22,369 nt of DNA, taken from IMG/VR virus record IMGVR_UViG_3300025872_002554, positions 1 through 22,369 of that record, one strand, 5' to 3'. Source of the stretch: a virus. Shown here piece after piece: positions 4,526-20,424 of this stretch (position 1 is the stretch's first letter; each line of letters begins with the position of its first letter). Made by a program: the position numbers and the translations under genes. The notes under the pieces were generated by a model. The model had not been told where the DNA came from, did not search any database, and saw nothing but the letters and a program-made list of their open reading frames with translations.

Positions 4526-5391
4526 AAGAATTTCAAAAGATTATTTACTCGGTTGATGAAGGTATGATTTTCTTTAACGTAATTCATTGCCTCTCTCATA
4601 TTTACACTCTGATTAATCTCTGCTTCCAGAAGATTTTGATATAGTGTTTGTGGAGTTCCACCAAAAACAACATAGTCTCCAAGAGCACGTTTGACTAGTG
4701 GAGAGTTGGTTCCAGTAATTCTACCATAACTAATGTTCTTCCACATTCTACATGGAATATATCCGTGTTGAAGGTGGAAGTCACTTCTAAAATCTGGACA
4801 CAAAAAAGACTGCCTTATCAGATTTCTATTTTCCTCATCACTGGCATTCTGGGTATAAACCATAAATTCAACGCCGTGGTTTTTACTTATAATATTAGCA
4901 AATTCTTGTGCCCACCAAAATCCCTGCTCATATAACATTGCAACATAATGCAGTTTCTTTTGTTCAGGATTGAATACCACATAATCATCAACATCTATCT
5001 CACTTGGAAGAAGATCTGTTCCCCAAGGTTGATACAATGTTCTCGTTTGATTATCCCAATACGCAAGATCGGAAATCTTTTCATGCACTTCCTCTCTCGG
5101 CAAGTAGTTACCAAGTTTCAAAATATTCTCATAGGGTATTCCTTTTTCAACAAGTTCGCCCTCAGGAAAATGATGTGTAATATACTTACAATCTTTTCTT
5201 ATTGGCAGACCTCTCTTTACAGAATCTTCAACAAAAATTAAAGAGTTTGATACATCAATGGTATCTACGTCAGTCGTATCAACCCAATGAGTTTCCCACC
5301 CAAGATCCTTAAAAGCCCTATAGTATCCATTTTGAACATAACTATGAGTCGATGTGTGTAACTTATGTGCCCAGATTATTACTTTGTTCAT
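4522..5391 (-). CDS. Putative glycosyltransferase (GT-B-like), family uncertain
   Basis: I cannot place this 289-residue protein in a named family with certainty. The N-terminal half alternates strands and helices like a Rossmann domain (VIIWAHKLHTSTHSY, then SLIFVEDSVKRGLP and KYITHHFPE). The C-terminal half contains HYVAMLYEQGFWWAQEF and a motif around residues 217-231, MWKNISYGRITGTNSP, resembling the loop in GT-B transferases that lines the nucleotide-sugar pocket, followed by Leu/Glu-rich helices. There is no signal peptide or membrane span. Four-base overlaps with the GT2 and GT11 genes on either side make a glycosyltransferase role likely by context. Confidence 0.6.
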   Translation of the reverse strand: MNKVIIWAHKLHTSTHSYVQNGYYRAFKDLGWETHWVDTTDVDTIDVSNSLIFVEDSVKRGLPIRKDCKYITHHFPEGELVEKGIPYENILKLGNYLPREEVHEKISDLAYWDNQTRTLYQPWGTDLLPSEIDVDDYVVFNPEQKKLHYVAMLYEQGFWWAQEFANIISKNHGVEFMVYTQNASDEENRNLIRQSFLCPDFRSDFHLQHGYIPCRMWKNISYGRITGTNSPLVKRALGDYVVFGGTPQTLYQNLLEAEINQSVNMREAMNYVKENHTFINRVNNLLKFL

Positions 5392-6134
5392 TCAGAATAT
5401 TCCCAAGTATCAAAAAAATCTTTATGCTTTTCTTCAAGATATTCTAACTCACTTTGAATAAACTGCCAAGAGGTTCCGTCACCCTCAATAACAATATCAT
5501 AATTTATTTTTGAAGTTGCGTTATTGGAATGTTGTCTACCTGTTGTCAGAACATCATTAATAATAAGTGGAGATCCGTGTCTTAAACGAAGGCGATGATA
5601 CCATTCATGATCCATACTCAAAGAGACATTTGTATCAAAATATTCAATATCTCTGTTTCTAATAGTTACATTTGTTGGACAACCTAAAAGATTATTCCCC
5701 ACTAATAAATGATCTGGGTATTGGGGAATTCTAGTATCAAAGTAATTAATAGAATCGTAAGTGTGATTGAAAGAATTGACCAACCAATACCTATCACTAT
5801 TATCCAAAGATTCTACAATGATTTTAAGAGCGTCTTTAGAATAAAGAAAATCATCACAATGCAAAATTTTGATATATTCTCCTTTACATAGATCCATTAC
5901 AAAATTTGAATTGGCAGACATGCCAATATACTCAAGATTCTTTTTGTAGACAACATTAAATTTATCCTCATAAGACTTACATAATGTTTCTGCTAAATCA
6001 TTTTTTGAGTTGTCAGAAACAACAACCTCATAATCAACAAATGTCTGTTCCAATATACTATCAAAGCATTGTTTTAAATAAGACAGATCTTTTTCATCTT
6101 TAATATAAGTTGGTATAGCGATAGAAATTTTCAT
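5388..6134 (-). CDS. Family 2 glycosyltransferase
   Basis: This 248-residue protein opens with the classic GT2 strand KISIAIPTY (residues 2-10), then LKQCFDSILEQTFVDYEVVVSDN (20-42) and the nucleotide/metal site GEYIKILHCDDFLY (85-98), where Asp94-Asp95 serve as the DD motif. GT2 enzymes are inverting transferases using NDP-sugars. The chosen ATG lies in an ATGA overlap with the preceding fucosyltransferase; a TTG four codons upstream is less likely. The N-terminal catalytic domain is complete, but there is no C-terminal membrane domain, so it is probably a soluble peripheral enzyme. Acceptor and donor are unknown. Confidence 0.87.
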   Translation of the reverse strand: MKISIAIPTYIKDEKDLSYLKQCFDSILEQTFVDYEVVVSDNSKNDLAETLCKSYEDKFNVVYKKNLEYIGMSANSNFVMDLCKGEYIKILHCDDFLYSKDALKIIVESLDNSDRYWLVNSFNHTYDSINYFDTRIPQYPDHLLVGNNLLGCPTNVTIRNRDIEYFDTNVSLSMDHEWYHRLRLRHGSPLIINDVLTTGRQHSNNATSKINYDIVIEGDGTSWQFIQSELEYLEEKHKDFFDTWEYSE

Positions 6135-6922
6135 AGTAAAGTCCAATGGGGTAGATAAAGATCTTGTGTTGATAAGTGAGAACCACCAGAAGAATACCAG
6201 TTCTTAGGAGCAACGACATTCTTAGAATCTGCCAACCATGCTCCCCACCAACTAAATGAACTGTTGGCAATGATATGATGAGTACACATAGTCATCAAAC
6301 AAAGGTCCATGAGATTATTGTCAGTTTCAGAAACTAAAAATCTATCTGGTTTAAACAAGTCCTGCTGCTTACACCAATCAGTATCATCAGAAAAGATGAG
6401 AACTGGAAGACTACTATCAAATTGTTCCAGTGCTTTTTGGTAGTATTCAAAACTACATTGTCCGTGAAAAGAGAAATGTTCTGGTTTCAAGTAATCAGTT
6501 CTTCTTACATGTAGAGATATGACTTCATCAAACTCAAATGCTTCTTTACATGGATTCCAAATTTCATCCACAAAAGCGAAGTCTTCACGAATCTTATTTT
6601 CAATGTGTTTGAAATACTTTTCAGATTGAAAATACCCATACAAACTTACATTATTTGGGCAGTTATCAACAAAGTCCTGAGAGTAAACGTGAGAAGAATT
6701 GTCAGGTTCTTTATAATAATCTCCCTCAATGTATCCAATATGCGCTACACTAGGTAATTTGAATGCTTCAAATAATTGATGTTCATTCCACTGATCTCTA
6801 AAGTCTGAAGGAGGAATGGTAAACTCATAACCATTTCTAGCAGCAATACCTCTTGTGGCAGCGTACTGAAACATCTGATTGGCAAGTCTACCATTCTTCC
6901 CCAGGTGATTGTATCCGATCAT
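6131..6922 (-). CDS. Alpha-1,2-fucosyltransferase, family GT11 (copy 2)
   Basis: The motifs parallel copy 1: GRLANQMFQYAATRGIAARN (residues 11-30), HVRRTDY (138-144) and NSSFSWWGAWL (220-230). At 263 residues it is slightly shorter. The HxRRxD form is closer to the consensus than copy 1 (RRGD). A strong AGGAGA ribosome binding site five bases before the ATG is supplied by the last codons of the DUF5672 gene. Similarity to copy 1 at both protein and DNA level points to duplication and divergence, perhaps giving different acceptor preferences. GDP-L-fucose from gmd/fcl is the expected donor. Confidence 0.88.
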   Translation of the reverse strand: MIGYNHLGKNGRLANQMFQYAATRGIAARNGYEFTIPPSDFRDQWNEHQLFEAFKLPSVAHIGYIEGDYYKEPDNSSHVYSQDFVDNCPNNVSLYGYFQSEKYFKHIENKIREDFAFVDEIWNPCKEAFEFDEVISLHVRRTDYLKPEHFSFHGQCSFEYYQKALEQFDSSLPVLIFSDDTDWCKQQDLFKPDRFLVSETDNNLMDLCLMTMCTHHIIANSSFSWWGAWLADSKNVVAPKNWYSSGGSHLSTQDLYLPHWTLL

Positions 6923-6923
6923 A

Positions 6924-7631
6924 TTATTCTCCTAATTCAACTCCAGGTGGAAGTCTAAAATGAAATCCAAAGGGCATAATACCTTCACACTCAGGAACTC
7001 TAACTTCCTGAGAAAATCTAACAGCAACTTCAACTGGAGCATACTTACATCCTTGCTCCAAAAATATGTGTCGATTGTGTACACATACATTACCATCCTC
7101 GTGGTAATTTACAACTCCTTCTGGCATCCAGTAAAAGTCGCTATTGTTTGTTTCCCAAGGAACTTCAACATTATTGGGAATATCAAGAAACTTTTTACTT
7201 CTCAAAGAGAACCCCCCATTACCAACTCGGTGATGATTACCAAAAGGATCAATATAAGCGTCTTCAGCATATGGCCAAGGAGCACCAATATAATCATAAT
7301 TTAACCAATCATTATCCCATTTTTCTGGGAACAAGACAAATCCATCTTGCTGAACCAATAGGCAATGAGATGTATCTACGTGCTCTCCAAGTTTATACAC
7401 AACATAGTAGTTGTAGTCATTATAACTACTGATTTCTATCTTTGGTTCTTCCAGTAGGATACCATCTTCTTTAAGAGAGTTTTGATACTGCTTTATATTT
7501 TCTGGGGTTGTTATTATTTTTACACTACCATATTCAATACCGTTCATACTGGTGTAGACCGCTTGAATAGTTTCTTCTATTCTATCAGTAGTATCAATTG
7601 ATATTAAGGTTACTCTATTTAAATCAATCAT
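6924..7631 (-). CDS. DUF5672 family protein, probable glycosyltransferase
   Basis: The C-terminal half carries the signature I associate with DUF5672: YDYIGAPWP (residues 112-120) followed by RVGNGGFSLRSKKFL (135-149). The N-terminal part (VTLISIDTTDRIEETIQAVYTS) fits a nucleotide-binding fold. Members of this family are found in glycan loci and are thought to be GT-A type transferases, though few are characterised. I chose the ATG at 7631, which overlaps the stop of the RfbH-like gene by eight bases; the longer frame would need a non-ATG start inside that gene. The product has 235 residues. Sugar specificity is unknown. Confidence 0.78.
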   Translation of the reverse strand: MIDLNRVTLISIDTTDRIEETIQAVYTSMNGIEYGSVKIITTPENIKQYQNSLKEDGILLEEPKIEISSYNDYNYYVVYKLGEHVDTSHCLLVQQDGFVLFPEKWDNDWLNYDYIGAPWPYAEDAYIDPFGNHHRVGNGGFSLRSKKFLDIPNNVEVPWETNNSDFYWMPEGVVNYHEDGNVCVHNRHIFLEQGCKYAPVEVAVRFSQEVRVPECEGIMPFGFHFRLPPGVELGE

Positions 7632-8925
7632 TAGTAAAGGATTCAACAGTTTTGTCAATATAATCAATCATCTTTTGATTGATAGTGGGAGAGCATCCAA
7701 GGAAGAATACTTTATCTAGAACTTGGTTTGCTTCTGGATATTTAGTTGCATCGTCGAGATGACTATACCCAGGGTGAAGAAGAATGTTGCCCGCAAAGTA
7801 ATTGCGTGTTTGGATTTTATTTTTCTCCAAATAAGCAACCAAAGATCTCTTTAGATTTTTATCATCGCAAATAATAGGAACACCAAACCAACTAGTTTCT
7901 GCGCCTTCTCTCTCATTAACAACTCTTACTCCAGGAATTTTTTCCATTATTTCCTGAATGGTATTTTTGTTATTTCTACGAATATTGTGAATCTCCTCAA
8001 ACTTCAAGAGTTGAACTGAACCAACTGCTCCCTGCATATCAAGAGGTTTGAGATTGTATCCCATATTGGAAAAGACGTACTTATGGTCAACAACATCATC
8101 ATAACTCTCTAACCAAGTATCAAATCTTTTACCACAGACACCATTTGAAAGAAGATTTTGCTGACCTACGCAATAACAACCTCTACCCCACCAGGCAAAA
8201 CTTCTAGCAAGATCAACAATACCTTTTTCATTCGAAGAAACCATTCCACCTTCAATAGTGCAAATGTGGTGAGCAGGATAAAAAGAACAAGATGCCGCAA
8301 CAGCATAGTCTGTTAGGTAGTTTCCTTTCCACTTACTTCCAAGACTATCACAGTTGTCAGCAATAATGGCAATACTATTACGTCTACACAAGTCAACAAA
8401 CTTGTTAATGTCATAAGGATTGCCTAGGACTGGAGAAGAAATAGCAGCAACAGTTCTGTCAGAGATCTTATCTGAGATTTGATCAATGTCCCAGTTCAAG
8501 TCTTCCCAAACAATATCAACAAATACTGGCTTTAAACCACACTGAACAATAGGTGCTACAGTTGTAGCAAACCCACAAGCACAGACAATAATTTCATCGC
8601 CATCTTTCCACCCAAAATATTTTTTAAGGGCAGCAAACATTACAAGGTTGGCAGAACTTCCAGAGTTCACCATCACGGAATGTTTGAAGTTAAATTTGTT
8701 TGAGAACTCATGTTCAAACTTATTAACCTTTTCTCCAGAAGAAAGCCACTTTCCTTTTAGAACAGAATGAATAAGTTCTCTTGCTTCTAGATCATCCCAG
8801 TATGGTCCAGAATAATAGACACTATCTTTTCCAGCAACGAATTCTTTTTTATTGGCAATGAATGGAAAGATATCTCCATCCATTTCTTTTGCGGACTCTA
8901 TGAATTTGTCAATCAGTTGGTACAT
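7624..8925 (-). CDS. RfbH/E1-type PLP and [2Fe-2S] sugar 3-dehydratase
   Basis: This 433-residue protein belongs to the DegT/DnrJ/EryC1/StrS aminotransferase fold but has SFYPAHH (residues 214-220), with His220 where true aminotransferases have the PLP-binding Lys. That swap defines the 3-dehydratases (RfbH/E1/AscC and ColD), which use PMP to remove the C3 hydroxyl of a 4-keto-6-deoxy sugar. Four cysteines follow the iron-sulfur pattern of E1: Cys192, Cys250, Cys252 and Cys264, with the first two spacings (X57, X1) as in E1. ColD lacks this cluster, so the RfbH type is favoured. The next genes upstream and downstream are a sugar reductase/epimerase and glycosyltransferases, suggesting a 3,6-dideoxyhexose branch. 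No dedicated reductase (E3) is in the window. Confidence 0.85.
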   Translation of the reverse strand: MYQLIDKFIESAKEMDGDIFPFIANKKEFVAGKDSVYYSGPYWDDLEARELIHSVLKGKWLSSGEKVNKFEHEFSNKFNFKHSVMVNSGSSANLVMFAALKKYFGWKDGDEIIVCACGFATTVAPIVQCGLKPVFVDIVWEDLNWDIDQISDKISDRTVAAISSPVLGNPYDINKFVDLCRRNSIAIIADNCDSLGSKWKGNYLTDYAVAASCSFYPAHHICTIEGGMVSSNEKGIVDLARSFAWWGRGCYCVGQQNLLSNGVCGKRFDTWLESYDDVVDHKYVFSNMGYNLKPLDMQGAVGSVQLLKFEEIHNIRRNNKNTIQEIMEKIPGVRVVNEREGAETSWFGVPIICDDKNLKRSLVAYLEKNKIQTRNYFAGNILLHPGYSHLDDATKYPEANQVLDKVFFLGCSPTINQKMIDYIDKTVESFTND

Positions 8926-9731
8926 AATTCTTCAATGATTTTTTCGATGGGGATTGTTTGCTCAAATCCAAGATTCTTTAACTTAGTGGTATCAAACCAA
9001 AAATCTTTTGTTTGTACTAGTTTGTGAAACTCAGGTGCTTCTTTATACTTTACTTGAGATGAAGAGTTTAGATACTCCTTTGCTGTATTGATTATATCAC
9101 CGATTGTGGTTGGTTGTCCACTACCTACATTATAAATTTCATTTATATTTCCAGTATCACATATAAGTTTTATTGCTCTACATACATCATCAACATGCAT
9201 CACATCTCTTATTGGAGTACCATCATCATACAAATAAACATCTTCATTATTTTTCAATAGACTTACCATATAACTTAAAGCATTCTTTTTTGAAGATGCT
9301 TTACCGTCACCAACACCAAGCACATTACAAAGTCTTATTATCCTATACTTTACATTATAAGTTTTACAAAAGGAGATTAGTAAATCTTCCGCTGCTTTTT
9401 TTGTAATTGAATAAAATCCTGTTGGGGAGCAGGAGTATTCTTCTTTTGCTGGTAATTGAGTTTGCCCGTAAACAAACCAAGAACTAATAAAATTGAAAGT
9501 GATATTAGAATCTCTACAAAAATCCAAAACTTCACAAAGAACCTTGAGGTTGGTTTCGACATCTAGAGTGATATTTGAGTGAACATTATAATTGTCTACT
9601 GTTGAAATCAAATATAAAATATTTTCTGTTCTTGGTTTTCTTTCCTCTCTATTTTGCCTCAAAACAAAATCTGGGTAGAGATTACAAAATCTACTACCCA
9701 CAAATCCAGAAGCACCATATACACTAATCAT
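8913..9731 (-). CDS. NAD(P)-dependent sugar epimerase/reductase (extended SDR)
   Basis: The 272-residue protein has a dinucleotide-binding loop GASGFVG (residues 6-12) and the SDR catalytic pair Tyr107 and Lys111 in YSITKKAAED. The segment RDVMHVDDVCRAI and the following NVGSGQPTTIGDI are typical of extended SDR sugar enzymes. Its place next to an RfbH-like dehydratase mirrors RfbH-RfbJ in Salmonella, where RfbJ reduces the 4-keto product to abequose. A 4-reductase role is therefore a reasonable guess, but 4-epimerase or 4,6-dehydratase activity cannot be excluded. The ATG is in an ATGA overlap with the preceding gene, which favours it over a TTG three codons upstream. Confidence 0.8.
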   Translation of the reverse strand: MISVYGASGFVGSRFCNLYPDFVLRQNREERKPRTENILYLISTVDNYNVHSNITLDVETNLKVLCEVLDFCRDSNITFNFISSWFVYGQTQLPAKEEYSCSPTGFYSITKKAAEDLLISFCKTYNVKYRIIRLCNVLGVGDGKASSKKNALSYMVSLLKNNEDVYLYDDGTPIRDVMHVDDVCRAIKLICDTGNINEIYNVGSGQPTTIGDIINTAKEYLNSSSQVKYKEAPEFHKLVQTKDFWFDTTKLKNLGFEQTIPIEKIIEELCTN

Positions 9732-10720
9732 TTCTTCCAATAATCATAAATATTCTTCTCTACTTCATACTCCATAACCTTCACTTTTCGGTTTGGTTGC
9801 TTCATTGCCCATACGAACATTGTTTCAACTAACTCTTCAAGATTAGTTTCATCTTTGAAGTTAAGAATGGTCTTCGCTTTTGTATGATCGCAGTATGCGT
9901 GTTTAACTTCGTGTCTTGGTTCTCCATGCTCTATTGGAACTTCATATCCATATTTCTTTCCAATCTTTTGAACGACTTTAGCAACTTCATTAAGTGAAAA
10001 GTATTTGTCTGCGCCAATATTAAATATTTCCCCATCATAATCTGTAAGAAGTTTATCAAATGGTTCCATATAATATTTGATATCAGAGAAGGCACGGGTC
10101 TGCTCCCCATCACCATAAACTAGAATAGGTTCACCATTCAGAGTTTTGCGAATAAAGATACCAATTACATTGCGATACTTATCCCAAATATTCTGATAGA
10201 TTCCCAGAACATTATGTGGACGAACAATATTATAACGAAGTCCAAACTGTTCATGAGCGAGTCTCAAATCACATTCAACAGCATACTTTGCTACACCATA
10301 AGGATCCACTGGTTGCGGGCGCTTATCTTCAGTAAACGGAGGTTCTTGTTCTCCATATACTGCCATACTAGAAGTAAAGATGAACTTTGTATCGTAATTG
10401 ATACACTCGTTGATTAGGTTAGCAGAACAAATAAGATTATTCCTATAGTTAAAATTACGAATGAATGGAGATAATCCTTCCGCAGCATAAGCAGCAAAAT
10501 GAAGAAGAACATCTGGATTATGCTCTTCAAAAAGTTCGGATACTTTTTTTCTTCGCTCCAAATCAAATTTAACAAAAGTAAATTTTTCCGCTTTAGGGAC
10601 AAAAGCTTTGTATCCACCCGACAGATCATCAATACCAATCACCTCATGCCCATTAGCAAGGAGATGCCTTGTGTAGTTTGCGCCAAGTAATCCAGCACAT
10701 CCAGTAACAAATATCTTCAT
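9728..10720 (-). CDS. GalE-like UDP-sugar 4-epimerase family protein
   Basis: This 330-residue extended SDR has TGCAGLLGANY (residues 6-16) as the NAD-binding glycine loop, DLSGG (32-36), HFAAYAAEG (74-82), SSMAVYGE (117-124) and the catalytic Tyr141-x-x-x-Lys145 in YGVAK. VYGDGEQTRAFSDI is the usual late signature of GalE-type enzymes. UDP-glucose 4-epimerase is the nearest functional model, making UDP-galactose, but CDP- or GDP-sugar epimerases share all of these motifs. It begins five bases after the methyltransferase stop and ends in an ATGA overlap with the next SDR gene, so it is co-translated with the dideoxysugar-like genes. Confidence 0.82.
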   Translation of the reverse strand: MKIFVTGCAGLLGANYTRHLLANGHEVIGIDDLSGGYKAFVPKAEKFTFVKFDLERRKKVSELFEEHNPDVLLHFAAYAAEGLSPFIRNFNYRNNLICSANLINECINYDTKFIFTSSMAVYGEQEPPFTEDKRPQPVDPYGVAKYAVECDLRLAHEQFGLRYNIVRPHNVLGIYQNIWDKYRNVIGIFIRKTLNGEPILVYGDGEQTRAFSDIKYYMEPFDKLLTDYDGEIFNIGADKYFSLNEVAKVVQKIGKKYGYEVPIEHGEPRHEVKHAYCDHTKAKTILNFKDETNLEELVETMFVWAMKQPNRKVKVMEYEVEKNIYDYWKK

Positions 10721-10725
10721 AACTT

Positions 10726-11340
10726 TTACTTTGATAAAATGAAAAATCCATTTCCATATGGATACTGATCAATCCATTTTTGTTTGATTGATCCAAGAGA
10801 ATAAGAAAATCTTTCCAATCTAAATCCTTGAGATTCAAAAAGACTTATCCACCATTCCTCATCTTTTTTAGTGACGTGAGTAATATCAACCTCATACTCC
10901 CTAATCCTAAACCTGTCAGCATCACCCAAAGGAACAACGAAAAAGAATTGCGAAGCTTTTCTCTTTAAAGTCTGAAGGACATCCGGTAAATCATCCTCTT
11001 CAACATGCTCAAGAACATCTTTACAAATCAATAGATCATAATGATTATCATTTGGCAGAGAAACATAATCTCTAACATTTGGATGACAGTTTTCTACAGC
11101 GTATTCACTAATATCCTCACCATAGGCATCACATCCAAGAATACGAAGAGCATTAACTAGAAAACCTTTGGCACACCCATAATCAACACAACTCCTGAAA
11201 GCAAAAGTGTTTTGAATATCTAATGCTTCTGGAATAGACCTAGTAGGTTCCCACTTGTAGTTTTCATATCCAGAGATGTGTTTTCTTACACCATCTTCAT
11301 AATAGTCTTTAGTGAAAAGATGCATATCAAGCAAAGTCAT
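10726..11340 (-). CDS. Class I SAM-dependent methyltransferase
   Basis: The SAM-binding motif I is CVDYGCAKGFLVNAL (residues 51-65), motif II has an acidic residue at GEDISEYA (74-81), and DLLICKDVLEHVEEDDL (102-118) is the motif found in the Methyltransf_11/23 group. Later, FFVVPLGDADRF follows the usual post-motif strand. The protein has 204 residues from the favoured ATG, which overlaps the radical SAM stop by 14 bases; an ATG 15 bases later is equally plausible. In a glycan operon it probably O- or C-methylates a sugar or its nucleotide-linked precursor. The substrate cannot be read from sequence. Confidence 0.82.
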   Translation of the reverse strand: MTLLDMHLFTKDYYEDGVRKHISGYENYKWEPTRSIPEALDIQNTFAFRSCVDYGCAKGFLVNALRILGCDAYGEDISEYAVENCHPNVRDYVSLPNDNHYDLLICKDVLEHVEEDDLPDVLQTLKRKASQFFFVVPLGDADRFRIREYEVDITHVTKKDEEWWISLFESQGFRLERFSYSLGSIKQKWIDQYPYGNGFFILSK

Positions 11341-12460
11341 TATGTTCAGTTTCTGTAAGGATGTCGTCAATCAGTTCATTTTGGATAGCATACTTACAGT
11401 AGTGGCAAGCATGATGTCTAAGAGTTGGTGGCTTACTATAGAATTCTTCTATACCATCAATGTCACAAACTGCGAATTGAGACTCTGGAACATAGTTATA
11501 ATTGTTTTCAATAGACAACTCCGCAGAAGGACAGGCATAAATGTACCCATCAGTGAATAGAAATGGTTTAACCATATGCATATAGCAATGGTCATTTCTA
11601 CGTTCCCCTTTAAAGTTAAAGTCTGAAAGGAAAGCATACTTTAACTTCCTACCACGATCTTGTTCGTAGTGCTCAATTACTCCACGAATAGTTTCAATAT
11701 CCTTCTCAGTTTCTTTTACATCCTTAATAGCATTAAAAGCAATACGGCAAGGAACACCATTTTCCTCTACCCAGTCTAACATACGAATGAAGTTTTCGGT
11801 AGTCTGGAACTTCTGAGATAGAACTCTCTTATTCTTTACATCAGTCCAATCGCCAGTGATGTTAGGGTTCTTAGATGTTTCTAGGTTTTCATCCCAAACA
11901 TAAGCAGCAGATGGTTTACAATTAGTTCCTTCAAATACACTTAGGTCATACTCATAACCTTCATAGAAACCATACATGCCAAGACGAACCCAATCAAATA
12001 GTTCTACAATATCTTTTTTGATTGGACGATCTGCTCCAAAGCGAGCACCATTTGTACAGATACCTAGACTAAATCCAAGGTCTTTAGCATATCTTACAAT
12101 CTTTTTAAAGTCTGGGTGGATGCTTGGTTCTCCACCACCAGTAAACTCAACACCAGTTACTCCAATCTTTTTGAAACTATCAAGTGCTTGAAGAACTTTT
12201 TCTGTTGGGAGTTTCTCAGAGATGTCTCTGTTAGCAAAGCAACAGAATGAACAAGTAAGATTACAAGCATTCGTCAGGGAAATATGTGCCATCACAGGTG
12301 ATGGTGGTTTTCCTTGTTGAAGTCCTTCTAGTTTATCTAAATGCTTAAGAAGTTTTGTTGCGTTACTACTAAAACTTCTTCCTTGAACTGCGTCATCTTT
12401 TTTGACGAAAGTTCCATCATCATTAAAAATATTTGTACCCTTATATGGCAAGACAGTCAT
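11327..12460 (-). CDS. Radical SAM protein with C-terminal cysteine-rich domain
   Basis: The 377-residue protein has the radical SAM CxxxCxxC cluster motif in NACNLTCSFCC (Cys66, Cys70, Cys73) and the SAM-contacting EFTGGGEPSIH (residues 105-115). A C-terminal region with HCYMHMVKPFLF, YIYACPSAEL, FAVCDIDG and HHACHYCKYA holds cysteines in a SPASM/twitch-like arrangement for an auxiliary iron-sulfur cluster. Its ATG has a good GGAGAC site six bases upstream, one of few strong sites in the operon, and follows a 30-base gap. It is adjacent to a methyltransferase and sugar SDR genes, so a radical rearrangement, dehydration or epimerisation of a sugar is likely. The reaction is not identifiable from sequence. 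Confidence 0.85.
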   Translation of the reverse strand: MTVLPYKGTNIFNDDGTFVKKDDAVQGRSFSSNATKLLKHLDKLEGLQQGKPPSPVMAHISLTNACNLTCSFCCFANRDISEKLPTEKVLQALDSFKKIGVTGVEFTGGGEPSIHPDFKKIVRYAKDLGFSLGICTNGARFGADRPIKKDIVELFDWVRLGMYGFYEGYEYDLSVFEGTNCKPSAAYVWDENLETSKNPNITGDWTDVKNKRVLSQKFQTTENFIRMLDWVEENGVPCRIAFNAIKDVKETEKDIETIRGVIEHYEQDRGRKLKYAFLSDFNFKGERRNDHCYMHMVKPFLFTDGYIYACPSAELSIENNYNYVPESQFAVCDIDGIEEFYSKPPTLRHHACHYCKYAIQNELIDDILTETEHNDFA

Positions 12461-12490
12461 TTGTCAGTCTCCATGATGTTTTTCGCTGAG

Positions 12491-13237
12491 TTATTTATGG
12501 TCATGTATATAATCCCTTTCTACTAAGTTTTCATTCCAAATCAAGTAAAACATTCTTTCCATAATATGTGCCTCAGCACAAGTTGGATCGTGTGGAGGAA
12601 CTGGTTTATAGTTTAGAACACTTTTTAGTTTTTCATACAAATGTTTACTATACTTTAGAATGTTCTCCTTTGGAACCACGAAGTTTGAGGCAGGAATGAA
12701 TTCTATTGTATCAGTTTTTGGTGGATTGATAAAACACCAATCAAGAAGTTCATGATGACTTGAGAAGAATCTATCTTCCAAATCATTGTTGTAAGAATAA
12801 TTACACCAAGCAACTGGTTGAATAAGTCTTCCATTCTGAAGAGTTTCAAGAGGAGTATAGTTTGTATGACTATGATCCCCAACCAATAGTTTCTTATCAA
12901 CCCAAATACTAAACAACTCTACCGTATTCAATGATTGAATAAACCTTTCTTTTGTTGTGTAGTAGTTTTCACCTCTAGAAAAAAGATTACCTTTAACAAA
13001 AATAGAAACATCTGGAAGACAATCATAGTTGTCTATTATAAAGTTCAATATATCATACTGATTGGCACCAAAGTTTGGAGACTTTGTTACTTTTCCAAGA
13101 TGACTATAATCAACTTCAACATCACTTTTATCATAGATGAATGTATTTTCAGAAGAGAATCCATAAGGATGAGTTTCTTTCAACCATTCTAGATCCCAGT
13201 TGTAGTTAGAGACTACTAATGATTTACTATACGTCAT
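12491..13237 (-). CDS. DUF3431-like protein, putative glycosyltransferase
   Basis: The 248-residue product follows the DUF3431 layout: SLVVSNYNWDLEWL at the N-terminus, TFIYDKSD, then PNFGANQYDILNFIIDNYDCLPDVSIFVKG (about residues 53-83), and near the end NFVVPKENILKYSKHLYEKL and ERMFYLIW. DUF3431 proteins are common in fungi, algae and large DNA viruses and are often found with glycan genes; their activity is not established to my knowledge. The gene overlaps the third GT11-like gene by ATGA and is followed by a 30-base gap before the radical SAM gene. Confidence 0.68.
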   Translation of the reverse strand: MTYSKSLVVSNYNWDLEWLKETHPYGFSSENTFIYDKSDVEVDYSHLGKVTKSPNFGANQYDILNFIIDNYDCLPDVSIFVKGNLFSRGENYYTTKERFIQSLNTVELFSIWVDKKLLVGDHSHTNYTPLETLQNGRLIQPVAWCNYSYNNDLEDRFFSSHHELLDWCFINPPKTDTIEFIPASNFVVPKENILKYSKHLYEKLKSVLNYKPVPPHDPTCAEAHIMERMFYLIWNENLVERDYIHDHK

Positions 13238-14187
13238 TTGTTTCCAGGAAATGGACCTTCACCTTTTAGGAAAAATCTTTCTTGTTTGAATCTTTCATTA
13301 TAAAGATTATTCCTTAAACTATATTCTTCATACTCTTTCCAACACTCATCATAAGAAAAAAGATTTCCTTCTCTATCTTGATACATCCACCCACTATAAA
13401 TGTTTTGTGGCATGGACCAATATCCGTCAGAAACATTATGTCTTGCCCAATATTTTGGGGCGATTATATTTTCAATAGTGTCACTAGTGAATACTGGAAA
13501 GAATGAGAAACTAGAGTTAGAAAGAATTACATGCTTAGAATTCTTAATTATAGCATAGTCCTTATCAACCGTAAAATGGTAAGCAGGTATTTCTGGAAGA
13601 ATAGACTTAGACGCCTCTACATCATCAGTGATTGATACAAATCTCATATTTGGATTTATTTTAACCATGTTGTTCATGGCATTAATCCAATAGTCTCTAA
13701 CTAAGAAGAGTACTGGATCATTTCTATACTCACCGCCACGAACATTTAAGACACAAACATCATCATCAATATATTCATAAGTATCATACTCTTCTTTTAC
13801 TTTAAGCCACTGCTTTACAAGTTCTTTATTGTGAAGGAAATACCTTTCATCCTGCATATTACCAAACATCAATGTATTGTCTGGAACACTAACAAGATTC
13901 TCATCAAACTTACTGATATGGCATCCGTGTGTGCTATCGTGCCAACACGTTTGTAGGAACAATCTGGTATCTTTTTCGTGATAGATCTCCAATCCATCAG
14001 GGACAGGAGACCCATAATCAAGATCCATCCAATAGAATCCATTCTGATTATATCTTTTATCTCCAGACCACCCAGTATCTTTTATTCCAAACTCAAGTCC
14101 CCTATCATGGGCAATTGACCTTGTTGTAACATAGCAAAATAGTTGGTTTCCTATTCCCTGACCATTTAAAATTTCAGTAGCTAGCAT
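13234..14187 (-). CDS. Divergent GT11-like fucosyltransferase (copy 3)
   Basis: The protein starts with NGQGIGNQLFCYVTTRSIA (residues 8-26), the GT11 N-terminal motif, and has LNVRGGEYR (147-155) and SNSSFSFFPVF (223-233) where the family has HxRRGDY and NSSFSWWGAWL. The changes (His to Asn, WW to FF) make it clearly more diverged than the other two copies. At 317 residues it is longer, with an extra charged C-terminal tail. It may use a different GDP-sugar, for example GDP-L-galactose from the neighbouring GDP-mannose 3,5-epimerase, or it may have altered activity. It starts four bases after the stop of the GT17 gene. Confidence 0.72.
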   Translation of the reverse strand: MLATEILNGQGIGNQLFCYVTTRSIAHDRGLEFGIKDTGWSGDKRYNQNGFYWMDLDYGSPVPDGLEIYHEKDTRLFLQTCWHDSTHGCHISKFDENLVSVPDNTLMFGNMQDERYFLHNKELVKQWLKVKEEYDTYEYIDDDVCVLNVRGGEYRNDPVLFLVRDYWINAMNNMVKINPNMRFVSITDDVEASKSILPEIPAYHFTVDKDYAIIKNSKHVILSNSSFSFFPVFTSDTIENIIAPKYWARHNVSDGYWSMPQNIYSGWMYQDREGNLFSYDECWKEYEEYSLRNNLYNERFKQERFFLKGEGPFPGNK

Positions 14188-14191
14188 AGTA

Positions 14192-15073
14192 TCAATATTC
14201 TTTGATTAGGTTAGCATACTTATCCAAGTTGTCAAGGATGTATTGGGGGAAAGAATCATCCATAGGAAATACTTTATAAGAAGCATATTCTCTACCAAGA
14301 GGATCGATATTATCCTTTACTTTAGATACATTATTTTTAATAGCATCATTGTTCATTTCAGGATGTGATGAACACTCACACTTTTTAATCAGTCTTTCCT
14401 CAACAGTTAGTCCTTCACTACCAACATAACTCCAATGCCATCCACCAGGGAATATCCTAGAGTTCTTTTCATTTTCATGTTTAGACCTAAGTTGAGATAG
14501 TTCATACCTATTCAGAATAGGTTTCCCAAATACCTTTGTTCCCAACCATCTTGGTCTTTCATTTCCATAATCAAAGTCTGGGGTCATCGCTCTAAGGATT
14601 CCAGTAACTTCAATCAGGTTCAAATAACTAATACAATTTTCCTGAGCAAAGTGATAGATTACATCAGTCTCAAAAAAAGACTTGAGTTCTGCCACAGCAT
14701 CTGGATTTGGAACTTCGTCAAGGTCTCCCCAAATAATAGCATCATCATCGCCAACGTGCTTCAGGAGAAGTTCTTTTATAGTGTCCTTCTGATAGGCGTC
14801 TCTCTGTTGTGCTTCAATCTGAGTTCCATATTTTCTGCCATATTCTGAGAGTACCGATTTATCGGCATCCTCGACAATATTGTGAATTATTTTGTGATTG
14901 AATTTTTCAAACTTATCTTTATTCTCTTGATAGTATAGAATTTTATCATTACCCTGAAAATCTTTTGTTCCTTCACTCAGAACAAAAAAGTCTACATAAG
15001 GGTCAAGTAAGTTCAATCTGATTTCTAACAGATCGACTTCATTGAAAAATGGAAATACATCAAATACCTTCAT
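14192..15073 (-). CDS. Glycosyltransferase family 17 (MGAT3-like)
   Basis: The 293-residue sequence fits GT17 throughout: KVFDVFPFFNEVDLLEIRLNLL (residues 2-23), DFFVLSEGTKDFQGNDKILYY (28-48), the QRDAY segment (90-94) and the metal-binding IIWGDLDEVPNPDAV (113-127). GT17 was defined by eukaryotic beta-1,4-N-acetylglucosaminyltransferase III; bacterial and viral members are known but their acceptors mostly are not. A late HWSYVG segment is also typical. Its ATG overlaps the preceding SDR gene by 14 bases. It is likely a GT-A type retained-cytoplasm enzyme acting on the glycan made by this operon. Confidence 0.82.
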   Translation of the reverse strand: MKVFDVFPFFNEVDLLEIRLNLLDPYVDFFVLSEGTKDFQGNDKILYYQENKDKFEKFNHKIIHNIVEDADKSVLSEYGRKYGTQIEAQQRDAYQKDTIKELLLKHVGDDDAIIWGDLDEVPNPDAVAELKSFFETDVIYHFAQENCISYLNLIEVTGILRAMTPDFDYGNERPRWLGTKVFGKPILNRYELSQLRSKHENEKNSRIFPGGWHWSYVGSEGLTVEERLIKKCECSSHPEMNNDAIKNNVSKVKDNIDPLGREYASYKVFPMDDSFPQYILDNLDKYANLIKEY

Positions 15074-15917
15074 AGTCCTTCCTCATAGCATTAAAAACTT
15101 TAGCAATACCTTGATCTATAGTAGTTTTTGGCATCCACCATTTAGAAATAAAGGTGTCTGCCATATTTCTTTTATCTAACTGAACACTATCTTTTTCTTC
15201 AGATGGTTTGATAACAATATCATATTTGCCCATGAGAGCAAATTGTCCAGAGATGATACTGGCAATATCAATAATCTTTGTGTAATGAAAACTTGTGATA
15301 TGAAGATTATCCTCTGATGTAAAATCAGTAAAGTTTTCCATTACTGTTTCAAGTGCTTCACAACAATCTTCAGCGTAAAGAAAATCCCTTTGCTCTTGAC
15401 CGTCTGTAAGCATATCAATCACGCCCGTTTCAAATCCTTTACGGATAAAGTCAGTGATGACGTGCGCCTTTTCATGGTCTTTCTCAATACCATAAACATT
15501 CCAGAACTTAACAATAAGTCCATTGAGAGACTTAGTATAAAGTTCTCCAACATTCTTAAGCACTCCATATGGAGAGTAACTCATGTTACTCATTTGAGAA
15601 GAAGCAAATACAAATCTCTTATTGTATTTTTTCAAATACCCAAATGCATTTGCCATTAAACGAGCATTGTTATCAATGAATTGGAAAGTATGTTGATACT
15701 TTTTGAGATAACGAGAACCACCAACATCAAATGCAAGGAAGAACACAAAGTCTGCTGTCTCAATTGCGTTTTCAAGATATTGATTTGGTATTACGGTCAT
15801 ATCATGATTAGGTGTTTCAACCTTATCAAAATGAATAACCACATGTCACTTCTTACGAAGATATTCCGAAAGGTAGGCACCAATCTGCCCACTTGAACCC
15901 AAGATTGTAATTTTCAT
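15060..15917 (-). pseudogene. Sugar-nucleotide SDR interrupted by one in-frame TGA
   Basis: Translation from the ATG at 15915-15917 gives MKITILGSSGQIGAYL..RKK, a proper Rossmann NAD-binding start, then TGA at 15846-15848, then HVVIHFDKVETP and 260 further residues in the same frame. An SDR normally has Gly at the stop position (KKGHxVxxFD), and TGA is one base from GGA. The upstream gene ends TGATATG, which marks 15917 as the natural start. The downstream part has YSPYGVLKNVGELY (catalytic Tyr/Lys), KFWNVYG and QRDFLYAEDC, all typical. A restart at GTG 15842 would lack the cofactor loop. Intact length would be 285 residues. It is a nonsense mutation, a sequencing error, or a read-through stop. 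Confidence 0.85.
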
Positions 15918-15918
15918 A

Positions 15919-16989
15919 TCAAACTCTATAGTGATCTACATTTTTATTGCCATTAAGTTGGGAGTGTATCCAATCGTATGTCTTAGAAATTCCTTCATCA
16001 AGGGTCATAGAATAATCCCAATCAAGTTTTTCTCTAATTAAATCATTATTTGAATTACGACCACGAACTCCAAGAGGTCCATCAATATGTTTTTTAGTGA
16101 TTGTTTTACCTGCTGCCTTTGCTGCAATGTCTGCCAGTTGATTAATAGTTACCATCTCCTCAGATCCAATATTCACTGGTCCCATAAAATCAGACTGAAC
16201 AAGACGATAGGTTGCTTCAACACACTCATCAATATAAAGGAATGAACGTGTCTGTTCCCCATCTCCCCAAATTTCAATCTCACCACCACCAATTGGAAGT
16301 TCTGCTACTTTACGGCAGATTGCTGCTGGCGACTTTTCCTTTCCGCCGCGCCAGGTTCCTTCTGGTCCGAATATATTATGATATCTAGCAACACGTACAG
16401 GAATACCATAGTTGCGATTATAAGCAAAATAGAGACGTTCTGAGAACAGTTTTTCCCATCCATATTCACTATCAGGTCCTGCTGGATAAGCATCATCTTC
16501 TTTAAGACCAGGATTCTCTGGATCCATTTGAATGTGCTCTGGATACATGCAAGCAGATGATGAGAAGAAAATAGTTGTCTTATTTACTTCTTTCATCTCG
16601 TTCAAACACTTTTGAGAGCGAAGAACATTTAGATTAATCGACGCAGAATTATTCATTACATCTGCATCGTGATCTCCAGTAAAAATATATCCAGCACCAC
16701 CCATATCAGCAGCAAACTGATAAATCTCATCAAAGGTATCAACATATTTACTGGGGACAAACTTATAGAAGTTGCTTGCATATCCCCTAAACTGAACGAT
16801 CTTATCAACAAGAATCTGATCTGTTAGATCTCCTATGATGAATTCATCCGCCTCAGTTTTAGAATGCTCTGGATATTTTACGTCTACACCACGAACCCAA
16901 TATCCTTCTTTCTTCAGTCGTTTAACCATGTGACTGCCAATAAAGCCACCAGCACCAAGAACAAGTGCTGTTTTAATATGTTGTGTCAT
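15919..16989 (-). CDS. GDP-mannose 3,5-epimerase-like protein
   Basis: The 356-residue protein matches plant GME closely in motif order: LGAGGFIGSHMVKRLKKEGY (residues 11-30), FAADMGG (92-98), SSSACMYPE with the catalytic Cys147, Tyr176-x-x-x-Lys180, HNIFGPEGTWRGGKEKSPAAICRK (204-227) including the acid Lys219, IWGDGEQTRSFLYIDECVE, and GVRGRNS near the end. GME converts GDP-D-mannose to GDP-L-galactose (and GDP-L-gulose). Two starts are possible: the ATG used here, 13 bases after AGGAGA, or a TTG two codons earlier with ideal 7-base spacing. It follows fcl by a 27-base gap holding an extended -10 element. It competes with gmd for GDP-mannose. Confidence 0.88.
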   Translation of the reverse strand: MTQHIKTALVLGAGGFIGSHMVKRLKKEGYWVRGVDVKYPEHSKTEADEFIIGDLTDQILVDKIVQFRGYASNFYKFVPSKYVDTFDEIYQFAADMGGAGYIFTGDHDADVMNNSASINLNVLRSQKCLNEMKEVNKTTIFFSSSACMYPEHIQMDPENPGLKEDDAYPAGPDSEYGWEKLFSERLYFAYNRNYGIPVRVARYHNIFGPEGTWRGGKEKSPAAICRKVAELPIGGGEIEIWGDGEQTRSFLYIDECVEATYRLVQSDFMGPVNIGSEEMVTINQLADIAAKAAGKTITKKHIDGPLGVRGRNSNNDLIREKLDWDYSMTLDEGISKTYDWIHSQLNGNKNVDHYRV

Positions 16990-17015
16990 GAACAAACAAT
17001 AATCTCCTAGTATAT

Positions 17016-17024
17016 ATTATACCA
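17016..17024 (-). promoter_or_regulatory. Possible internal promoter (extended -10) before GME-like gene
   Basis: TGGTATAAT on the minus strand is a full extended -10 (TGnTATAAT); its TAA is the fcl stop codon. There is no good -35 box. It lies in one of the few gaps in the operon and would start transcripts just before the AGGAGA ribosome binding site, so the start point may be very close to it. Confidence 0.4.
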
Positions 17025-17931
17025 TATTCAGACAATACCAGTCATAAGTTTTCTTAAGACCTTCTTCAAGAGATATCTTTGGTTCCCATCCAAGTTCTTT
17101 AATTTTATCAACGTTTAGAACTTTGCGAAGAGTTCCATTTGGGGCATCAGTATTCCATTTGATTTCTCCAGTAAATCCAACAACTTTAGAAATCATCTGT
17201 GCTAACTCCTTGATCGTAATGTCTTCACCGACACCAACATTGATGTGAGAAGATTGGTCATACTTTTTCATACAAACATAACAAGCCTCTGCTAGATCAT
17301 CGGCGTGAAGAAATTCTCTTCTAGGAGAACCATCACCCCACAAAGTTACTTCCCCACCCTCATGAAGTTTACGAATTAAAGCAGGTAAAACATGACAAGT
17401 TTCTAAATCAAAACTATCATTAATACCATATAGATTACAAGGCATTACGCTAATAGCGTTAAACCCATACTGCTCTCTGTATGATTGGCACATCTTAATA
17501 CCAGCAATCTTAGCAATAGCATAAGCATCATTTGTTGGTTCAAGTGGTCCAGAAAGTAGAGATGATTCTAAAATTGGAACTTCAGCAAACTTAGGGTAGA
17601 TACAAGAAGAACCAAGAAAGAGAAGTTTCTTAACTCCAGTTTGATAAGCAGAATCTATGATGTTTGATTGAATCATCAAATTATCATAGATCATTTCTGC
17701 TTTATGATTCTTATTTCCTAGAATCCCACCAACTTTTGCGGCGGCAAGGAAAACATATTGTGGTTCTTCTGAAAGAAAATATCTTATAGTTTCATCTTGA
17801 TTAGTAAAGTCAACATCATTACGAGTTCCTTTAATAATATTTGTATACCCCTTTTCTTCAAGGTTTCTTACTATTGCTGATCCAACCATTCCGTTAGCAC
17901 CAGCAACTAAAATTTTAGATTGCTTGTTCAT
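17017..17931 (-). CDS. fcl: GDP-L-fucose synthase
   Basis: This 304-residue protein has the NADP-binding [16 protein letters not shown] (residues 7-22), [10 protein letters not shown] (61-70), GSSCIYPK (107-114) and the catalytic Tyr137-x-x-x-Lys141 in YAIAK. These correspond to the Ser/Cys/Tyr/Lys set of E. coli GDP-fucose synthase (321 residues). MPCNLYG and [19 protein letters not shown] complete the family signature. The enzyme epimerises C3 and C5 and reduces C4 of GDP-4-keto-6-deoxy-mannose, the product of gmd directly upstream. The ATG at 17931 overlaps gmd by 17 bases; a longer frame needs a non-ATG start. Its product feeds the GT11 genes. Confidence 0.94.
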
Positions 17932-18925
17932 TTTTACACATATCCTCAACTAGTTTCTCAAAAGAAGTTTTTGGTTCCCACCCCAACTGAAGTTTCGCTT
18001 TTGTATAATCCCCAAGAAGAGAATCTACTTCTGCTGGACGGAAGTATTTTGGATCAACCATTATACGAACTAACCCAGTATTTGTATCAATTCCAACTTC
18101 AGTTCCATCAACAGTAAACTGCCACTCAATATTCATTCCAAAGTAAGGTGCTGCTGCCTCAACAAACTCACGAACTGAATATTGTTTTCCTGTAGCAATC
18201 ACAAAGTCATCAGGTTCTTCCTGCTGTAGCATCATCCACATTGCTTCAACATAATCTTTAGCGTGTCCCCAGTCACGTTTGGCATCAAGATTGCCCAACT
18301 TAAGAACAGTCTGCTTACCTTCAGACATTGCCTTAAGACCTCTTGTAATCTTCCTTGTTACAAATGTTTCGCCACGTCTGGGAGATTCATGATTAAAAAG
18401 AATGCCAGTACAAGCATACATTCCATATGCTTCTCTATAATTTTTGGTGATCCAGTATGCGTAAATCTTTGCTACACCATAAGGAGAGCGGGGATAAAAA
18501 GGAGTAGTTTCACGCTGAGGAGTTTCTTGAACAAGACCGTAAAGTTCACTTGTAGAGGCTTGGTAAATGCGGACACGATCTTCCATACCCAAGAGGCGCA
18601 CTGCTTCAAGAACACGGAGAGTTCCCATACCATCCACATCAGCAGTGTATTCAGGCATCTCAAAGGATACTTTGACATGACTTTGAGCACCAAGATTATA
18701 AATCTCATCAGGTTGAACTTTTTGAATAACTCTGACTATATTAGTAGAATCTGTTAAGTCTCCGTAATGTAACTTAATATTTTGAAATATATGATCAATG
18801 CGATGAGTATTAATCATAGAAGAACGACGGACAATACCATGAACTTCATATCCTCTTTCCAATAGAAATTCAGCAAGATATGAACCATCTTGTCCTGTAA
18901 TGCCCGTAATTAAAGCAACTTTCAT
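17915..18925 (-). CDS. gmd: GDP-mannose 4,6-dehydratase
   Basis: The N-terminus [33 protein letters not shown] (residues 4-36) is the highly conserved GMD start, with the TGxxGxxG NAD(P) loop. QASTSELYG (122-130) supplies Thr125 and Glu127, and [12 protein letters not shown] supplies Tyr149 and Lys153. [18 protein letters not shown] is also diagnostic. At 336 residues it is a little shorter than E. coli Gmd (373). It converts GDP-D-mannose to GDP-4-keto-6-deoxy-D-mannose. It is the first gene of the 17-kb glycan operon, starting about 20 bases after a -10 element; its ribosome binding site is weak. The ATG is favoured over a TTG two codons upstream. Confidence 0.96.
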
Positions 18926-18943
18926 ACACAATTATTTTTTTCT

Positions 18944-18972
18944 ATTATAATAAAAAAGGTAGGTTTATGCAA
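18944..18972 (-). promoter_or_regulatory. Promoter of the glycan operon
   Basis: TATAAT (18944-18949) lies 17 bases after TTGCAT (18967-18972) on the minus strand. The -35 box is weak (three of six) and sits in the loop of the terminator hairpin. The predicted start point is about 10-12 bases before the gmd ATG. The same arrangement occurs at 1453-1490. Confidence 0.6.
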
Positions 18973-18981
18973 CCTACCTTT
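18951..18981 (-). terminator. Rho-independent terminator upstream of gmd
   Basis: An 11-bp perfect stem (AAAGGTAGGTT with AACCTACCTTT, arms 18971-18981 and 18955-18965) with a 5-base loop is followed on the minus strand by a run of T. The stop codon of the 39-residue gene is inside the stem. It separates the tRNA/small-gene block from the glycan operon. Confidence 0.88.
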
Positions 18982-19093
18982 GATTATTCAGGCTCGCCAC
19001 CAATTCTTTGACTGGAAATTGGAAACCAGGCGGGAGAGAGTCCCATCCGCACCACTTGCTCTTGAGAGAAGCAAGAAACTCATAAGGGGTCAT
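18974..19093 (-). CDS. Small hypothetical protein (39 aa)
   Basis: An ATG at 19093 preceded by the purine-rich GGTGGTGGAG, four bases away, opens a 39-codon frame ending in a TAG within the terminator stem. The product MTPYEFLASLKSKWCGWDSL.. has aromatic residues and a PPGFQFPVKELV segment; no membrane span. The strong ribosome binding site and exact fit between the 77-residue gene and the terminator support it as a real gene. Family and function are unknown to me. Confidence 0.65.
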   Translation of the reverse strand: MTPYEFLASLKSKWCGWDSLPPGFQFPVKELVASLNNQR

Positions 19094-19105
19094 TTGACTC
19101 CACCA

Positions 19106-19125
19106 CCTAGTTTGTCTGAACTAGG
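19106..19125 (-). repeat. 7-bp inverted repeat at a gene end
   Basis: CCTAGTT and AACTAGG pair across a 6-base loop; the TAG stop of the 77-residue gene is in the stem. No T-run follows, so it is probably not a terminator. It lies just before the ribosome binding site of the 39-residue gene and could affect its translation or RNA stability. Confidence 0.4.
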
Positions 19126-19340
19126 AAAAGTTGGACTAGTTTTGGTATTTCAATAGCGGCATAAAAACCACATAAGAAAAGAATATCCCAAAACTTATAT
19201 TTGATAGCAAAGGGAACAACAAAGATATTCCCAATACATTTTACAAATAGTCCGATTTTCATATCTCCCCATAAAAGAAAAAAGTATCCTGATAAGAGGA
19301 GAAGATTTCCAATGTATCTGAATACATTAGATTTTGCCAT
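19107..19340 (-). CDS. Small multi-span membrane protein (77 aa)
   Basis: The 77-residue product is strongly hydrophobic, with segments at about residues 9-25 (YIGNLLLLSGYFFLLWG), 29-45 (IGLFVKCIGNIFVVPFA) and 50-70 (WDILFLCGFYAAIEIPKLVQL), separated by short charged loops. Two to three membrane helices are likely. GGGAG lies 11 bases before the ATG. I do not recognise the family. Small membrane proteins of this kind are common in the accessory regions of T4-like phages; the function may be in host membrane takeover, but this is a guess. Confidence 0.7.
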   Translation of the reverse strand: MAKSNVFRYIGNLLLLSGYFFLLWGDMKIGLFVKCIGNIFVVPFAIKYKFWDILFLCGFYAAIEIPKLVQLFLVQTN

Positions 19341-19389
19341 AAGGGGTTTGCTCCCGACCAGTGCGCTTTTTAAGTCATCCCGAGACTAT

Positions 19390-20134: not shown

Positions 20135-20323
20135 CTACGATGCTTCGTTATTGTTTTCCGTGTATATTCGGAAAAGTTCATCATCTGCAGGAACCATAAC
20201 TGCTCTATTCTTTCCATCTTCTATTCCAAGAGTTTCTCCATTCTCTACTCTTGAAATTATAGCGTCCCAATTTTCTTGCCAGTATTCCACGGTATAAAAA
20301 GGAATGTCTTTCATAGTTGTCAT
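20135..20323 (-). CDS. Phd/YefM-like antitoxin (orphan)
   Basis: The 62-residue product contains YWQENWDAIISRVENGETLGIEDGKNRAVMVPADDELFRI, which follows the Phd/YefM pattern: an N-terminal helix (xxWDxIIxRVExGE), a beta hairpin with an ED/KN turn in place of the usual xxGRPVA, and an Ala-Val-Met-Val-Pro strand before an acidic helix. Phd proteins bind DNA as dimers and neutralise a cognate toxin with a disordered C-terminus. The longer frame to 20422 is rejected because it translates tRNA-Pro. The ATG is only ten bases from tRNA-Pro and the stop ten bases from tRNA-Ile. No toxin gene is visible in the window. The ribosome binding site is weak; a Met three codons on is an alternative start. 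Confidence 0.68.
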   Translation of the reverse strand: MTTMKDIPFYTVEYWQENWDAIISRVENGETLGIEDGKNRAVMVPADDELFRIYTENNNEAS

Positions 20324-20333
20324 ATTTAGACAA

Positions 20334-20407
20334 TCGGGGTGACAGGATTCGAACCTGCGACCTAATGCTCCCAAAGCATCCGCGCTACCAAACTGCGCCA
20401 CACCCCG
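20334..20407 (-). tRNA. tRNA-Pro(TGG)
   Basis: Acceptor CGGGGTG/CACCCCG, D arm GCGC..GCGC, anticodon arm GATGC-TTTGGGA-GCATT and T arm GCAGG-TTCGAAT-CCTGT form a clean 74-base cloverleaf with anticodon TGG. It is the first tRNA after the consensus promoter at 20425-20453. No CCA is encoded. Confidence 0.93.
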
Positions 20408-20424
20408 TTGTTTCTTACCCACTA

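Follow-up and report, generated by a model that had tools for sequence, protein, structure and literature searches.

The gene at 15060-15917 on the minus strand of the window (the whole 22,369-base stretch analysed) is an extended-SDR nucleotide-sugar epimerase/dehydratase gene of 285 codons, and it is broken at codon 24 by an in-frame TGA at a position that is a sense codon in the relatives inspected. We lean towards a nonsense mutation of one base, very recent, in what is otherwise a normal cyanophage gene.

The interrupted frame and its operon

Translation of 15917-15060 (-) from the ATG at 15917 gives MKITILGSSGQIGAYLSEYLRKK*HVVIHFD..., with a single internal TGA at 15846-15848, and past this codon the frame stays uninterrupted down to the terminal TGA at 15060-15062. 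This confirms the original prediction of an in-frame TGA followed by the remainder of an open SDR frame. The read-through protein matches Pfam PF01370 (Epimerase) with E=1.5e-24 and 87.2 bits, against a curated cutoff of 20.9, and the phage family phrog_540, 'nucleotide-sugar epimerase', with E=1.6e-50; together with the homologs described below, these matches support the proposed identity as a sugar SDR. No NCBIfam equivalog scored above its cutoff for the interrupted SDR.

The stop divides the gene into two unequal parts. According to the translation and a predicted model, the N-terminal stub of 23 codons (15849-15917, minus strand) holds beta1, the GxxGxxG dinucleotide-binding motif (GSSGQIG, residues 7-13) and alphaA of the Rossmann fold; the motif lies 5' of the stop and is therefore present only in the stub or in a read-through product. 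The downstream open frame (15060-15842, minus strand), which has a possible GTG restart and would encode 260 aa, reaches 61.8 bits by itself against the same PF01370 cutoff. It retains the catalytic YxxxK, which is YGVLK at residues 117-121 of the full protein and invariant across 30 aligned relatives, and is missing the NAD-binding region from beta1 to alphaA.

The genes of the window are mostly on the minus strand, where they make up a sugar operon of the GDP-fucose/glycosyltransferase type. The operon begins with a wcaG cis-regulatory RNA leader (18986-19083, minus strand; RF01761, 104.9 bits, gathering threshold 42), an element described before in marine metagenomes as well as in T4-like cyanophages (PMC2864571). 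Directly downstream of it is an intact gmd gene for GDP-mannose 4,6-dehydratase (17915-18931, minus strand; TIGR01472, 561.7 bits, cutoff 415), followed by an intact GDP-L-fucose synthase-like gene (17017-17949, minus strand; NF047922, E=2.2e-132), whose 441 bits fall below the curated cutoff of 500. Next comes an intact SDR (15919-16995, minus strand; ORF, Pfam and gene order), judged GDP-mannose 3,5-epimerase-like because it comes behind the GDP-fucose genes, and its stop and the ATG at 15917 are one base apart. The interrupted SDR follows, and then glycosyltransferase-type genes and others. The first of these (14192-15073, minus strand) is intact and overlaps the 3' end of the interrupted SDR; it has no NCBIfam match, and several phages carry a glycosyltransferase annotation at the same place. 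The isolate cyanophage S-SCSM1 has a cluster of GDP-mannose 4,6-dehydratase, GDP-L-fucose synthase and GDP-mannose 3,5-epimerase genes in an order identical to that of the three upstream genes in the window, but the portion of that report used here makes no mention of an interrupted SDR (PMC9602691).

Three further genes drew our attention. The operon also contains a radical SAM protein (11327-12460, minus strand), whose NCBIfam matches, even the best of them, score far under cutoff. A second SDR at 8913-9740 (-) has an intact frame, both here and in the collinear contig G001 described below; its Pfam Epimerase match starts as late as profile position 86, which means that the N-terminal region is either short or divergent. 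The ORF at 20135-20422 (-) has an N-terminus, VAQFGSADALGALGRRFESC, that is the translated tRNA-Pro gene at 20334-20407, and this is probably a false gene start.

Intact relatives and the age of the stop

The joined frame was compared with the best 80 of its 217 relatives in IMG/VR. All 80 match residues 1-281 or more at 77-97% identity, align from residue 1 and share the same initial methionine, and in every one of them the gene is free of stop codons. Codon 24 encodes Gly in 75 of these 80 (GGT in 48, GGA in 23, GGG in 3 and GGC in 1), as had been expected for the stop position; the others have Arg (3, all AGA), Glu (1) or Asp (1). A further 17 isolate or single-cell cyanophage records cover 98-99% of the length at 65-71% identity to the joined frame, the nearest named relatives being Synechococcus and Prochlorococcus phages. 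Judged by sequence comparison, the joined frame is not a chance reading, since full-length relatives match it in both sets. The cyanophage nucleotide-sugar epimerases of phrog_540 in P-SSM2, S-SSM7, S-B05 and S-SCSM2R are the same gene at full length (65-71% protein identity) and likewise sit in a glycosyltransferase/sugar operon; they are uninterrupted, whereas the copy in the window carries the stop.

Homologs lacking the 23-residue N-terminus would speak against a broken gene, and every one of the best 80 has it. A misread start, with homologs beginning downstream, was rejected on the same alignments, and two annotated isolate phages also put the gene start at the same place. A degenerate pattern search for TGA at codon 24 in its conserved context found no IMG/VR contig, in a search that may skip records lying very close to the window.

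The contig IMGVR_UViG_3300042691_009227 (G001; loci L001/L085) is collinear with positions 4551-19364 of the window (14.8 kb) and 98% identical to it. Its SDR copy is intact, with a sense codon at position 24 and a protein 97% identical to that of the window. Between the two SDR genes there are 38 synonymous and 11 nonsynonymous differences, giving a dN/dS of 0.061 over the whole gene; by this measure the rest of the gene is under purifying selection. Relative to the best 80 of the 217 relatives, bases unique to the gene of the window number 3 in 855 positions: the stop and two third positions, one in codon 93 that is synonymous and one in codon 221 that gives an Ile also seen in relatives. 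The stop is thus the sole residue of the gene absent from all of the relatives inspected. Over codons 1-93, comparison with locus L002 (91% protein identity) shows 43 synonymous differences, and the stop is the only nonsynonymous change. Taken together, these data indicate that essentially no time has elapsed under relaxed selection, and therefore that the stop is either very young or a sequencing or assembly error. An established or old pseudogene was rejected, there being one lesion only, the dN/dS given above and, apart from the stop, no residue that is missing from all of the relatives inspected. The selection data and the intact relatives agree with the original suggestion of recent loss or sequencing error.

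Nonsense mutation or consensus error

A recent nonsense mutation is supported by the uninterrupted gene in all 80 of the best relatives, by the sense codon in G001 and by the fully open downstream frame, and we give it somewhat better than an even chance. Against it stands the fact that a change so young resembles a one-base sequencing or assembly error. The stop also lies inside one of eight patches in which the window diverges from G001, a position compatible with recombination or with a strain-mixed consensus.

The two contigs differ at 276 positions, 233 of which fall within these eight short patches (2,455 bp in all); over the remaining 12.35 kb the divergence is 0.35%. The patches, mapped against locus L085 and diverging by about 5-13%, are 11113-11287, 11462-11588, 14717-15029, 15537-15878, 16126-16300, 17545-18157, 18512-18596 and 18704-19328. 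The densest 300 bp hold 50 differences, and the maximum over 1,000 random placements was 18. In the patch that contains the stop (15537-15878, minus strand) there are 43 differences in 342 bp. For 15530-15917, G001 is the closest relative among the fetched loci, at 88.9% identity, and no closer donor for the patch was present among them; in IMG/VR, neither an exact 32-mer nor a degenerate 29-mer gave a match, and megablast against isolate phages gave none either. This clustering suggests homologous recombination among cyanophages as the simple reading of the patches, with a strain-mixed consensus as the alternative. The patch at 18704-19328, which is among the most divergent, contains the wcaG RNA leader.

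The alternative that one base in the metagenomic consensus is wrong, and that the virus itself has an intact gene, is a serious one, to which we assign about one chance in three. The source is an uncultured IMG/VR contig, and the stop is the only abnormal residue of the gene. A comparison of 430 genes yielded three other stops, each in a weak alignment (27-47% identity) and close to the start of the protein, which together with the stop-free set of best relatives indicates that genuinely broken genes are uncommon in this neighbourhood. However, the contig is not generally error-rich: five genes (11327-12460, 12491-13237, 13234-14187, 14192-15073 and 15919-16995) show no nonsynonymous differences from G001, and the 26 listed ORFs of the window contain no further internal stop, so the earlier statement that the other operon genes are intact holds. 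We favour a nonsense mutation over an error mainly because the rest of the contig is free of excess nonsynonymous or frame-breaking changes. The reality of the base and the loss of activity are inferred, whereas the stop, its absence from relatives and the purifying selection on the rest of the gene are shown by the data.

Decoding of the UGA and consequences for the protein

UGA followed by C may be a leaky context in bacteria. The original prediction had raised UGA read-through. If functional, whether programmed or tolerated, read-through would supply full-length enzyme in sufficient amount and might act as a low-dose switch; this received no comparative support, and we regard functional read-through as improbable. 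In its favour, residue 24 tolerates Arg, Glu and Asp among relatives, and a weak hairpin lies 3' of the stop (-13.8 kcal/mol over 75 nt, as a raw folding energy). Among the stop codons of E. coli, UGA is the leakiest, and read-through of premature TGA has been measured there in many contexts, with a following T improving termination and a following G worsening it (PMC11126739). The same source gives Trp as the usual insertion, but the site is Gly or charged in the relatives inspected. The stop occurs in none of those relatives and in none of the IMG/VR contigs searched, so read-through is not conserved. None of the four tRNAs of the window (Met, Ile, Pro and Ser) is an opal suppressor. TGA terminates 17 of the 26 listed genes, three of them normal genes with a C following, and therefore UGA serves this virus as a stop codon, and a C after it is nothing unusual there. 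Some full-length product via leakage is possible, with no indication of selection for it. A real stop with a useful trickle of full-length protein, by which surface-sugar activity would be dialled down as a phase-like low-expression allele in the population, seems to us more improbable still.

We give practically no credence to UGA as a sense codon in virus or host (Gly as in code 25, or Trp). The frame does stay open when TGA is read as a residue, but TGA ends most of the listed genes, as counted above, and in-frame it occurs only once in roughly 6,300 codons, compared with 364 GGN glycine codons; the close relatives are phages of Synechococcus and Prochlorococcus. Reassignment under codes 4/25 was rejected on these counts. 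Selenocysteine at codon 24 is unlikely, judging from the aligned residues, because relatives have Gly, not Cys, at the site.

If the nonsense mutation is real, translation would end after 23 residues. The structure predicted for the read-through protein (mean pLDDT 78.5) has a Rossmann-type fold matching solved SDR epimerases/dehydratases (Foldseek E down to 1e-11, TM 0.6-0.7), with beta1 at residues 2-6, helix alphaA at 11-22 and beta2 at 26-29, and it places the stop in the turn between alphaA and beta2. Candidate restart codons 3' of the stop are GTG 15842 and ATG 15800. Given the position of the stop, restart at either would yield a protein lacking beta1, the NAD-binding GxxGxxG loop and alphaA, so SDR activity would be expected to be lost or very weak, ordinary low-level UGA leakiness aside. 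Automatic annotation would call a 260-aa 'epimerase' from GTG 15842 with its NAD site missing.

Our search of the literature on premature stops in metagenomic phage genes found nothing directly usable. Metagenomic phage contigs can be expected to contain isolated nonsense alleles as well as consensus errors of one base, and the present case is ordinary and matters little alone. Should the stop be real, the surface-sugar operon of this cyanophage carries a natural loss-of-function allele, which would be consistent with a turnover of accessory glycan genes.
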